Made by a program: the position numbers and the translations under genes. Below the pieces are notes generated by a model that was given only the letters and a program-made list of their open reading frames with translations, did not search any database and was not told the DNA's origin. From the IMG/VR virus record IMGVR_UViG_3300020281_000145, positions 1 to 20,531 of that record: a stretch of 20,531 nt of DNA. One strand, 5' to 3'. Shown piece after piece: positions 146-7,358 of this stretch. The DNA is from a virus. Position 1 is the stretch's first letter. Every line of letters begins with the position of its first letter.

Positions 146-976
146 ATGACACAACTAATTTCCCCTCAAAAATTTACAGATACCGTTGGCCTTTTAAGGT
201 CATTTTTTTTGGACAAAGGTTTTCTGGAAGTCCATACTCAAAATAGATTAAGTATATTAGCAGCATGTGAAGATCCTTTCAACGTTGCAACGTATAACTA
301 TGCAGGTCAGATATGGCCGCTGCCACAAACAGGTCAAATGTGGTTAGAACACGAATTATTAAGTAGCCCCGATAGTAAGGGGTTTTTTTGTGTCTCTACT
401 TCGTATAGGCAGGAACCAAACGCAATACCAGGAAGGCATGATATTATCTTTCCAATGTTTGAATTTGAAATGCCTGGAGATATAAACGACCTTAAGAAGA
501 TGGAGTATGAATTAGTAGACTACCTAGGATTTAAAAAGCCAGAAGAAAAAACATATAAGGAATGGCAGAAACATTTTGACATGCAATATGTATGGGAACT
601 TGAAGCCAAACATGAAAATAAGATGTATGATGAATTTGGTACAGCCATGATCACAGACTTTCCTGAATTTACAAGTCCTTTCTGGAATATGAGTAGATAT
701 GATGATAAAGACGCATCTAAAAAGATTGATGTTATACTAGGTGGTATGGAAACAATAGGATCGGCTGAAAGATCTACAGATGTTGATATGATGAGAGATA
801 CATTCCATACAATCACAGATGGAGAATATTCTAAACTATTATTTAATTTATTTGGTAAAGATAGAGTTGAAGCTGAATTAGAAAAGTTCTTAGAATTCGA
901 TTTCTTTCCACGAGTAGGTGGAGGTATTGGTATGACAAGAATGATTGCAGCCTTGGACAAGAATGCAAAGAATTAA
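146..976 (+). CDS. Minimal class IIb aminoacyl-tRNA synthetase, AsnRS/AspRS type
   Basis: The 276-residue protein has the catalytic core of a class II synthetase of the Asn/Asp/Lys subgroup. Motif 1 region: GFLEVHTQ (25-32). Motif 2: SYRQEP (86-91), followed by RHD at 97-99 and EFE at 106-108. An AsnRS/AspRS-like stretch ITDFPEF...PFW lies at 169-180. GGMETIGSAER is at 199-209, and motif 3 GGGIGMTR (258-265) ends in the ATP-binding Arg. The chain starts about 25 residues before motif 1, so the N-terminal OB-fold that reads the anticodon in AsnRS and AspRS is missing, and the protein is far shorter than the usual 430-590 residues. The start at 146 is chosen because GGAG sits 6 bases upstream; an in-frame TTG at 134 overlaps that site. 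It is followed by a small overlapping gene and a tRNA with anticodon GUU, which suggests Asn charging. An AsnA-like or non-translational ligase role is possible. The family call is firm; the substrate is inferred. Confidence 0.85.
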   Translation: MTQLISPQKFTDTVGLLRSFFLDKGFLEVHTQNRLSILAACEDPFNVATYNYAGQIWPLPQTGQMWLEHELLSSPDSKGFFCVSTSYRQEPNAIPGRHDIIFPMFEFEMPGDINDLKKMEYELVDYLGFKKPEEKTYKEWQKHFDMQYVWELEAKHENKMYDEFGTAMITDFPEFTSPFWNMSRYDDKDASKKIDVILGGMETIGSAERSTDVDMMRDTFHTITDGEYSKLLFNLFGKDRVEAELEKFLEFDFFPRVGGGIGMTRMIAALDKNAKN

Positions 977-1148: not shown

Positions 1149-1237
1149 TCTGGGGTGGCGGAAAAGGTAGACGCGATAGGTTGTTTCCCTATTGTCTTGA
1201 GCAAGGCGTGGTGGTTCGAGTCCACCTCCCAGAGCCA
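1149..1237 (+). tRNA. Class II tRNA with anticodon GUU (Asn-type) and encoded CCA
   Basis: A full cloverleaf can be drawn. Acceptor 1149-1155 pairs with 1227-1233 (7 bp, one G-U). The D stem GCG/CGC is 1158-1160 with 1172-1174, with an 11-base loop containing GG. The anticodon stem ATAGG/CCTAT is 1176-1180 with 1188-1192, with loop TTGTTTC. A long variable arm spans 1193-1209 with a 5-bp stem (GTCTT/AAGGC, one G-U). The T arm GGTGG/CCACC has loop TTCGAGT. G73 is at 1234 and CCA at 1235-1237. The D arm and long variable arm resemble tRNA-Leu, but the anticodon is GUU (1183-1185). G73 and the U1-A72 pair match tRNA-Asn, whereas LeuRS needs A73. Position 37 is U, where a purine is usual. It is co-transcribed with the AsnRS-like gene and is probably a chimeric Asn acceptor. 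Serylation is an alternative, because SerRS reads the variable arm and accepts G73. Confidence 0.9.
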
Positions 1238-4291: not shown

Positions 4292-5254
4292 ATGGATTAT
4301 TCTTTAACACTATTTAAAAACATATACGATAATAAAACTCACAAGAGAATGAACTTTCCTACATGGGATTTGTTCGAAGGCTTGCTCTATGGTTTGTCAC
4401 AAAAGCCTGGAAGAAAGGGAATAGATTATGATAGAAACGGCACTAGTTCTCCTCTTATTAGTCCTGCTACTTACACACCCGATAGTACTCGTGCTAATAA
4501 AAATGTTATTAATTGGAGCGGTTGGGCTGCTATTGATGTTGATGATCATAGCTTTAACAACAGAAACCTCGAACAGCAACTTGCTCAACGATTTGGACAG
4601 TACTACTATATCTGCTACAGTACAGCTAGTTCAAGAGAAGATTACCCAAAGTTTAGGCTGGTTTTCAAATTATCTGAACCAGTTGTTAACAGACAAATAA
4701 AACACTTCTGGTATGCACTAAATACTGAGTTTGATAACCTAGGTGATAGGCAAACTAAAGATATGTCTCGTATGTATTATATTCCAGCTCAATATCCAGG
4801 TGCTTACAACTTTATATTTACAAATAAAGGTTTTGCTATAACTCCGGAAATACTTATGGAGAAGCACCAATTTGTAGAAAAAGATGACAATGATTCTTTC
4901 TTTGATCGTTTACCTAAAGCAATGCAAGACCAAGTTCTTCAATATATGGAAGATAAGATATGGGATGAAAAGGTTAACTTTGAATGGACTAGTTATCGCG
5001 ATTGTCCTTTCTTTCCAAAGAAACTTGCTTCAGAGTATATGGCCATAGGTGAAACAGGTTGGTATCATAAGATGTATCAAATAATGGTTGCAACTGCAAG
5101 CAATGCTATAAGAAAGAAATATCCTATTGAAGCTGATGAAATTGCCGAGCTATGTAGGCAGTTCGATAATGACAATGGTCAATGGTACAAGAATAGAAAT
5201 TTTGATACTGAAGCCGATAGAGCTATAGAATATGTATATAGAACTTCGATTTAA
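4292..5254 (+). CDS. Archaeo-eukaryotic primase-like (prim-pol) protein
   Basis: The 320-residue protein has features of the AEP primase-polymerase superfamily as found in plasmid and phage replication proteins. The strand GWAAIDVDDH (77-86) carries a DxD metal motif. A following segment, YYICYSTASS...PKFRLVFKLSEPV (105-131), fits the second motif plus a conserved Arg. The C-terminal 120 residues are helical and resemble the primase C-terminal regions of such proteins. The usual sxH motif is not obvious. No zinc ribbon is seen. It lies between the polymerase and the dCMP hydroxymethylase, consistent with a replication role. T4 uses a DnaG-type primase (gp61); whether this one substitutes for it cannot be told here. 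An ATG at 4288 leads to a short frame and was not chosen. Confidence 0.6.
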   Translation: MDYSLTLFKNIYDNKTHKRMNFPTWDLFEGLLYGLSQKPGRKGIDYDRNGTSSPLISPATYTPDSTRANKNVINWSGWAAIDVDDHSFNNRNLEQQLAQRFGQYYYICYSTASSREDYPKFRLVFKLSEPVVNRQIKHFWYALNTEFDNLGDRQTKDMSRMYYIPAQYPGAYNFIFTNKGFAITPEILMEKHQFVEKDDNDSFFDRLPKAMQDQVLQYMEDKIWDEKVNFEWTSYRDCPFFPKKLASEYMAIGETGWYHKMYQIMVATASNAIRKKYPIEADEIAELCRQFDNDNGQWYKNRNFDTEADRAIEYVYRTSI

Positions 5255-6337: not shown

Positions 6338-6900
6338 TGAATATTTTCGTATTACATAAAGATCCTACGCTTGCAGCTCAAATGCTGTGTGATAAACATA
6401 TACCAAAAATGATCGTTGAGTCAGCACAAATGCTAAGTACAGCTCATAGATTATTAGATGGCACACCAGAAAAAAGAAGATCTAAATCAGGTAAGACTAT
6501 ACAAACTTATTATTCTTTTAATGATGGAAGAGAAAGCCTGTATTATGCAGCAGTACATAAGTATCATCCTTGTACGACATGGACTACCGAATCAAAGGAT
6601 AACTATAAGTGGCACTATAAACATTTTGCTGCTATGGCTGATGAATATACGTTTAGGCGTAAAAAAGTTCATGCTACTTGGGAAAAACTAGGTGAACTAT
6701 TACATAGGCCTCCTACAAATATTCCTGATATTGGACTAACTGAGTTTGCTCAAGCTATGTCACACTATCCTGATTGTATAGTTCCAGGTGATGCTGTACA
6801 GGCATATCGTAATTATTATCATACGGCTAAGCCATTTGCTAAATGGGACTGGGGAAGGCCGGCACCAGATTGGTGGGAAGGATATAAAGGAGCTGCATGA
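6337..6900 (+). CDS. Conserved phage protein of unknown function
   Basis: This 187-residue protein starts at an ATG sharing one base with the previous stop (TAATG). It is rich in His, Trp and Tyr. The segment LCDKHIPKMIVESAQMLSTA (17-36), an HPCTTW motif (77-82) and a basic W/P-rich C-terminus (KWDWGRPAPDWWEGYKG) are characteristic of a family often seen in T4-like and other phages. The opening resembles the start of pyrimidine-dimer glycosylase family proteins (Pyr_excise), but I cannot confirm catalytic residues, so no activity is assigned. It sits between dCMP hydroxymethylase and dCMP deaminase, so a link to nucleotide metabolism or DNA repair is possible. Confidence 0.7.
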   Translation: MNIFVLHKDPTLAAQMLCDKHIPKMIVESAQMLSTAHRLLDGTPEKRRSKSGKTIQTYYSFNDGRESLYYAAVHKYHPCTTWTTESKDNYKWHYKHFAAMADEYTFRRKKVHATWEKLGELLHRPPTNIPDIGLTEFAQAMSHYPDCIVPGDAVQAYRNYYHTAKPFAKWDWGRPAPDWWEGYKGAA

Positions 6901-7358
6901 TCATTAATACCTTAATGAAAAACTGGAAGTGGCAAGAAAGATACTTGGATCTAGCAGAAGAAATTTCCAAGTGGTCTAAGGATCCTTCAACTCAATGTGG
7001 AGCAGTTGCAGTTGGTGACAAAGGACAAATACTATCTCAAGGATATAATGGATTTCCTAGAGGTATTCATGATAATATCGGTTTATTAGAAGATAAGAAA
7101 TCTAAATATGATAGGATAGTTCATGCCGAAATGAATGTCATATATAATGCATGTTATAACGGAGTTAGTTTAGATGGAGCTTCTCTATACATATATGGTT
7201 TGCCTTTATGTTCTAAATGCTGTCTAGGTGTAATACAGGTAGGCATAAAACGGGTCATTATGAAAGCACCAAAACTTCCGGAAAGGTGGAATGAATCCTG
7301 GCAACTATCTCAAAAATTATTGTCAGAGGCAAACATAAAATATGATTTACAAAGCTAA
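6897..7358 (+). CDS. cd: dCMP deaminase
   Basis: A zinc-dependent cytidine/deoxycytidylate deaminase of 153 residues. It makes dUMP from dCMP and so feeds dTMP synthesis. Motifs: DPSTQCGAVAV (29-39), GYNGFPRG (49-56), HAEMN (77-81; zinc His77 and proton-shuttle Glu79), and PLCSKC (103-108), whose two Cys complete the zinc site. The ATG overlaps the previous stop as ATGA, and AAAGGAG lies just upstream. The length is less than T4 Cd (about 190), without the extra zinc loop near the N-terminus. It competes with the neighbouring hydroxymethylase for dCMP, so together they set the balance between T and hydroxymethyl-C. Confidence 0.93.
   Translation: MIINTLMKNWKWQERYLDLAEEISKWSKDPSTQCGAVAVGDKGQILSQGYNGFPRGIHDNIGLLEDKKSKYDRIVHAEMNVIYNACYNGVSLDGASLYIYGLPLCSKCCLGVIQVGIKRVIMKAPKLPERWNESWQLSQKLLSEANIKYDLQS

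Follow-up and report, generated by a model that had tools for sequence, protein, structure and literature searches.

AsnRS paralogues recruited outside translation are of a kind already known, and it is among these that we file the ligase family described here. The archaeal asparagine synthetase (3p8t/3rex family) is a non-translational enzyme made, like our ligase, of the AsnRS core alone (about 290 aa); the two differ in that the ligase matches its profile more weakly than that of AsnRS, and in that the phage copies of the ligase have a linked tRNA. EpmA/GenX/PoxA is likewise a catalytic-core-only class II paralogue (Z 23.2), but it is lysine-type, and the ligase scores 15 bits against a cut-off of 286.9. 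AsnRS itself shares with the ligase the catalytic fold (Z 26), the [ST]GQxxxE pocket, motif 2 and the motif 3 arginine, whereas the ligase has no OB-fold, carries Thr264, Arg256 and the segment RLSILAACEDP, is about 20% identical and is linked to pyrimidine genes in cells. With the CarAB-PyrB-PyrC route we claim no kinship of sequence or fold; what is shared is the gene neighbourhood and a proposed end product, dihydroorotate, and the ligase would replace that route. On the side of the tRNA, passages of two reports place asparagine identity in the anticodon and G73, with U1:A72 serving GatCAB (PMC9976931, PMC4206432). The phage tRNA bears this identity set of the non-discriminating AspRS plus GatCAB system (GUU, G73, U1:A72), although its product would, in our proposal, be used by the phage ligase outside translation. 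It has GUU and G73 in common with elongator tRNA-Asn, but in the DNA studied here it combines U33 with U37, and has a 17-nt variable region instead of the short one of class I.

The whole stretch analysed (the window) is a virus contig of 20.5 kb. Some of its genes are T4-like, among them those for family B polymerase, UvsX and a DnaB-type helicase; others concern nucleotides, namely thymidylate synthase, dCMP deaminase and IMPDH/GMP reductase. The gene at 146..976 on the + strand encodes a 276-aa single-domain AsnRS-related ligase (PHROG 29758; labelled 'tRNA ligase' in P-SSM2/P-SSM7). Its reading frame opens with ATG at 146 and its stop ends at 976, and an alternative TTG start at 134 would give four extra residues. 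A tblastn search of 50,697 phage records found the ligase in nine. Three of these are P-SSM7, P-SSM2 and P-SSM5, where it is labelled 'tRNA ligase'; the others are huge metagenomic phages, whose copies are 45-49% identical to that of the window. Two of the huge phages, L004 and L005 (LR756501, LR756508), hold divergent copies on long branches and without a linked tRNA; another, LR756511, has a DHODH-like gene. In the passages that concern it, a published report names gene cluster 194, found in two cyanophages, only as 'tRNA ligase' (PMC3037559). Within the open-licence PMC literature, subscription papers lying outside it, we found neither this pairing of gene and tRNA described nor any part in pyrimidine synthesis for an AsnRS-like enzyme.

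The first-pass annotation had proposed an AsnRS relative of 276 residues reduced to its catalytic domain, with no OB-fold, and this was confirmed. In Pfam, tRNA-synt_2 (PF00152, E 1.2e-17) is the sole family matched at E up to 1; the AsnA family model is unmatched, and the OB-fold anticodon-binding domain is absent both by Pfam and by the AlphaFold model, which aligns to the catalytic half of AsnRS only. That model (pLDDT 91) superposes over its full length on this half (Z 26, 250 residues, 20% identity). In the fold ranking AsnRS comes at Z 26.2, with GenX and the archaeal AsnRS-derived asparagine synthetase (3rex) at Z 23.2 each; likeness of a predicted fold cannot decide the reaction. Bacterial AsnA does not appear in the 50 fold matches listed, an absence that carries no weight. 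The PDB profile match is 3e-11 for AsnRS versus 5.7e-4 for 3p8t, and both curated family scores are below cut-off (AsnRS 26.7 vs 414 bits; GenX 15 vs 286.9 bits).

We aligned the family with AsnRS and AspRS-type sequences from the same cellular genomes (8 AsnRS-labelled and 5 AspRS-type rows). Residues 62-68, TGQMWLE (329..349, +), form an AsnRS-type amino-acid pocket with Glu68, of the Asn-type [ST]GQxxxE and not the AspRS SPQxxKQ (the AsnRS rows have seven SGQ and one TWQ). Class II motif 2 (residues 87-108; 404..469, +) is complete, with R88, E90, RH98, E106 and E108. Motif 3 (residues 258-265; 917..940, +) retains its glycines and R265, so that the earlier claim of two intact motifs stands for motif 2 and, in motif 3, for everything except the acid before the arginine: this is Thr264 in 16/16 family rows displayed, versus E/D in the 13 reference rows. 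Arg256 occupies the place of the His of PHxG, and residues 34-44, RLSILAACEDP (245..277, +), are family-specific, highly conserved and missing from the aligned AsnRS/AspRS. Judged by its sequence, the ligase is an AsnRS-type catalytic core with no anticodon domain and with a changed motif 3. Phage and cell copies have the same strongly conserved residues; among positions conserved at about 90% or more in both sets, only position 93 differs (70 cell and 94 phage-type rows, L133 and L135 being dropped). The family, common to phages and scattered bacteria and archaea, is an undescribed, AsnRS-derived and catalytic-domain-only one, with a predicted ATP-dependent ligase activity.

One enzyme that such a core brings to mind is an asparagine synthetase like the archaeal AsnRS-derived one, which would make asparagine from aspartate, ammonia and ATP and so enlarge the Asn pool, the tRNA helping to use the Asn. 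The architecture is the same, an AsnRS core without anticodon domain (Z 23.2 to 3rex), and the profile of 3p8t is matched at E 5.7e-4; nevertheless the ligase sequence is nearer to AsnRS than to the archaeal synthetase family, and this reading would leave unexplained both the linkage to pyrF, pyrE and pyrD and the absent ATCase and CPSase, which are described below. We consider it quite unlikely.

Scanning 84,980 species genomes yielded 110 confirmed stretches. We kept the best 80 (49-93% identity) and sorted them into 72 cellular loci and 8 phage-type contigs; 'phage-type' here includes eight MAG contigs (L087-L093, L143) judged phage-derived. The cellular homologues are 49-63% identical to the window ligase and scattered over bacteria and archaea, the carriers among the best 80 of 110 being Patescibacteria, DPANN archaea, Midichloriaceae/Bandiella, Bacteroidota, Myxococcota, Dependentiae, Chlamydia and others; the complete chromosome of Pasteurella atlantica carries one. 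In a tree that took in 113 of 172 representatives, L108/L113/L115, each of which lies in a pyr operon, form the sister group of the window clade (SH-aLRT 94).

Of 23 carrier genomes surveyed for gene content, 13 have AsnRS above 230 bits, 10 of these over its cut-off; GatB passes its own cut-off in 16. An alternative route to Asn-tRNA (AsnRS or GatB) is present in 22/23, GatB occurring in 9/10 of those without AsnRS above 230 bits (the exception is G008). Because of this, the family must be dispensable for Asn-tRNA in cells, and a general role there as a substitute for AsnRS was rejected. The ligase is probably not an ordinary AsnRS. The earlier idea of an AsnRS serving translation is now in doubt: the closest cell relatives lie in pyrimidine clusters, the organisms that hold them mostly have an alternative Asn-tRNA route, and the linked tRNA breaks the rules for positions 33 and 37. 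The annotation had held that clustering with a non-tRNA ligase family would count against its reading; this is borne out in part, the ligase belonging to a family that in cells is unlikely to serve translation in the ordinary way.

Neighbour clustering found PyrE/PyrF-family neighbours at 18 of the best 80 of 110 loci, all of them cellular, with spacings of 1-100 nt from the ligase gene in L108, L109, L113, L115, L124, L128, L137, L142, L146, L158 and L162. DHODH-family neighbours occur at 13 cellular and 2 phage-type loci among the same best 80 of 110. In L108 (Midichloriaceae) the order is enzyme-pyrF-pyrE-DHODH-PRPP synthase, the last being what we take it to be from reading the sequence, and in L115 (Pasteurella) the enzyme is followed by pyrF at 1 nt and then by pyrE. 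Pfam and NCBIfam confirm representative pyrimidine neighbours; they recognise the short PyrE-like proteins of L108, L113 and L115 weakly, and no model of either collection matched the short PyrE-like phage protein of L020. This adjacency in bacteria suggests a role in nucleotide building rather than in ordinary protein synthesis. Gene content points the same way, with the limit that completeness figures are lacking and only Pasteurella atlantica is titled complete, so that absences may be assembly gaps: ATCase is over cut-off in 0/23 carrier genomes (two weak matches) vs 14/14 controls, multifunctional-type DHOase in 0/23 vs 11/14, and the CPSase large subunit in 1/23 vs 14/14. Sub-cut-off DHOase-like matches occur in five of the 23, four at 88-219 bits and a fifth at about 23 bits. 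The cell homologues, then, point to pyrimidine synthesis without carbamoyl phosphate.

Some phage copies have such neighbours too. A PyrE, PyrF or DHODH-like gene is found in 21/237 phage-type loci (14/106 non-redundant), and in L251 a short PyrE match begins 6 nt past the ligase gene. In reverse scans the ligase was found in 4/8 short PyrE loci (one being the query's own contig and two its close relatives) and in 1/2 DHODH loci, which is the query's own contig; it was not found within the records of the remaining loci, which are fragments. Searched with the short PyrE and the DHODH of phages, P-SSM2/5/7 gave no match.

DHODH was found at E 1e-8 in only 12 of 26 genomes with the ligase gene, and the PyrE model scores above 40 bits in only 11 of them; in a Patescibacteria sample, DHODH is present in 25/27 ATCase-positive genomes and in 9/27 negative for both ATCase and ligase. 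Across 192 Patescibacteria the ligase gene (4/192) and ATCase (38/192) have zero overlap, but four carriers are too few to inform and this anticorrelation was discarded as evidence. The main evidence against a pyrimidine role is that no such pathway was seen in most Patescibacteria and DPANN carriers, and in several Patescibacteria the ligase gene adjoins what we presume, from reading the sequences, to be dus and dnaX-like genes, not pyrimidine genes. The pathway there may be too diverged for recognition, the assemblies may have gaps, or the enzyme may be used for something else. A different neighbourhood is also seen in L153 and L157 (Cytophagaceae/Spirosoma MAGs), where the ligase gene comes after an argininosuccinate-lyase-like gene, preceded in L153 by an amidohydrolase-like gene. 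Taken together, we lean towards a pyrimidine role for the ligase.

Such a ligase would start or bypass early pyrimidine synthesis. Asparagine supplies N1, C6, C5, C4 and N3 of dihydroorotate, only C2 being lacking. Because asparagine holds all the other ring atoms, the reaction we favour is asparagine + bicarbonate + ATP to dihydroorotate + AMP + PPi, which would replace CPSase, ATCase and DHOase; by our own chemistry, C2 could come from bicarbonate with ATP, and PyrD, PyrE and PyrF of host or phage would then complete UMP. We know of no precedent for this conversion of asparagine, and as the actual reaction of the ligase, read from its sequence, it is rather doubtful.

The reading frame for a 61-aa protein at 963-1148 overlaps the end of the ligase gene and spans the gap up to the tRNA. 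Outside the window it turned up in just two very close contigs and in none of the phage records; it is thus not conserved, and as the partner protein that the annotation had suggested it was rejected. The tRNA itself lies at 1149..1237 on the + strand (ARAGORN; Rfam 43.2 bits), with anticodon GUU, a class II body and encoded CCA. Its U1 (1149, +) pairs with A72 at 1233; U33, the anticodon G34 U35 U36 (1183-1185) and an unusual U37 (1186) occupy 1182..1186 (+), the 17-nt variable region 1193..1209 (+), and the discriminator base G73 is at 1234 (+). The tRNA is genuine, with 97.7% paired cells and strong covariation across 22 relatives, from which a covariance model (CM) was built, loop bases being counted by a separate script.

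That enzyme and neighbouring tRNA belong together, as had been proposed, is upheld by the relatives, in which the pairing is kept well beyond chance. A G73 tRNA is present within 270 nt downstream in 78/100 non-redundant phage-type loci, typically 4-18 nt past the stop, in a count that omits six viral representatives with less than 330 nt downstream and proteins below 240 aa. GUU was parsed in 76 of these 78, and the other two are also GUU on reading. In the 24/100 loci without a parsed GUU tRNA, the CM finds one in six (L143, L204, L212, L230, L245, L278); in the 22 without a G73 tRNA within 270 nt, it has a match downstream in L143, L212, L245 and L278 (1 kb away). Among the 76 parsed tRNAs, U1:A72 is present in 75 and encoded CCA in 61. 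The class II body and long variable arm, on which recognition had been supposed to rest, did not prove general: arms range from 5 to 39 nt across the family, and the bodies of some partner tRNAs are of class I. Since its length varies in this way, the arm is not a constant recognition element, and variable-arm recognition as a general rule, the arm varying in sequence as well, was rejected; the constants are U1:A72, G73 and GUU.

U33 and a purine at position 37 matter in decoding. In the 76 partner tRNAs, base 37 is T in 62, A in 8, G in 4 and C in 2 (pyrimidine 64/76), and base 33 is T in 65, C in 5, A in 4 and G in 2 (non-U 11/76). An earlier pattern search had fixed pyrimidine 32 and T33, giving U33 by construction; the 76-row count was made without that constraint. 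Control tRNAs of the same loci have U33 in 88/88 and purine 37 in 87/88 (the one that lacks it is the partner-type tRNA of L278). The CM had 53 matches elsewhere, near-identical contigs left out; 52 of them are also ARAGORN calls, and the 46 distinct tRNAs among these all have U33 and purine 37, with the caveat for U33 that ARAGORN may favour it and that the CM itself was built from U33 tRNAs. By its bases, the partner tRNA retains the elements of charging (GUU, G73, U1:A72) and loosens those of decoding. Lacking an anticodon domain, the core would not be expected to read GUU, so that selection for this anticodon suggests a reader other than the ligase, either the ribosome or a host synthetase.

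These features bear on the possibility of a true mini-AsnRS that, to serve phage translation, charges its own tRNA with Asn via the acceptor end (U1:A72, G73), the odd tRNA body making the pair orthogonal to the host. The AsnRS-type pocket with Glu68, the best PDB profile and fold match, the linkage in 78/100 loci and the constancy of GUU, G73 and U1:A72 all agree with it. However, a tRNA with pyrimidine 37 and, at times, non-U33 would decode poorly; the cell homologues, although they share the conserved residues, have no adjoining tRNA and an alternative Asn-tRNA route, and pyrimidine neighbours occur in both cells and phages. We regard it as unlikely, yet as a serious rival. It is still less probable that the tRNA acts as a version of tRNA-Asn proof against host anticodon nucleases by virtue of its altered loop, which the ligase keeps charged during the host response. 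The changes do cluster at positions 33 and 37, and loop-changed phage tRNAs have been proposed, in passages of one report, to evade anticodon nucleases (PMC10264068), but the loops of the other tRNAs at these loci are normal, and the pyrimidine linkage and the tRNA-less cell homologues would be unexplained. This explanation is the least probable of those considered.

We propose instead that the linked tRNA of the phages would be a dedicated asparagine carrier. Host enzymes that read GUU and G73 would load it with Asn, these being AsnRS, or a non-discriminating AspRS followed by GatCAB (which reads U1:A72), and the phage ligase, not the ribosome, would take the Asn from it. A carrier role for the linked phage tRNA is possible, at rather less than even chances, and it cannot be general, no tRNA of the partner type adjoining the cellular ligase genes (0/64). 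The reading as a whole, an AsnRS-derived ligase in pyrimidine synthesis with an asparagine-carrier tRNA in phages, we hold tentatively and somewhat short of an even chance. Its strongest form, in which one enzyme bypasses the first three pyrimidine steps and a non-decoding tRNA makes phage pyrimidine synthesis tRNA-dependent, is improbable. Were the proposal right, there would be a second, so far unrecognised way into a core pathway, made from an enzyme of translation and serving symbionts, at least one bacterium whose genome is complete (Pasteurella atlantica) and common marine phages, and a phage tRNA family would work outside decoding. Read cautiously, the phages have a large family of AsnRS-like enzymes whose linked tRNAs violate the U33 and purine-37 rules, which opens two questions to direct test: which features are recognised by a synthetase core that lacks an anticodon reader, and what purpose phage tRNAs serve.

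Passages of one report give P-SSM2 a single tRNA (PMC3037559), consistent with a role tied to the gene and not to translation. In P-SSM2 (L002), GenBank puts tRNA-Asn PSSM2_199 at 6825-6910, about 2 kb off and inside another gene; ARAGORN and the CM place it at 4813-4900, directly after PSSM2_198, matching the order of the locus tags. The partner tRNAs of L252 and L256 have C33 and a different D-arm, and that of L252 ends in CCG instead of CCA. ARAGORN misidentifies partner tRNAs with variable arms of 28-31 nt, giving them as Ile, Asp or Glu tRNAs or as of unknown type (L008, L014, L019, L023, L049, L054). Ultra-long arms (L008-L010, L012, L014, L015, L027, L029, L030, L043-L045, L047, L051 and others) share a conserved tip, for example CTGCAA or GCAA, carried by a stem that can reach about 10 pairs, which is suggestive of a putative binding site.
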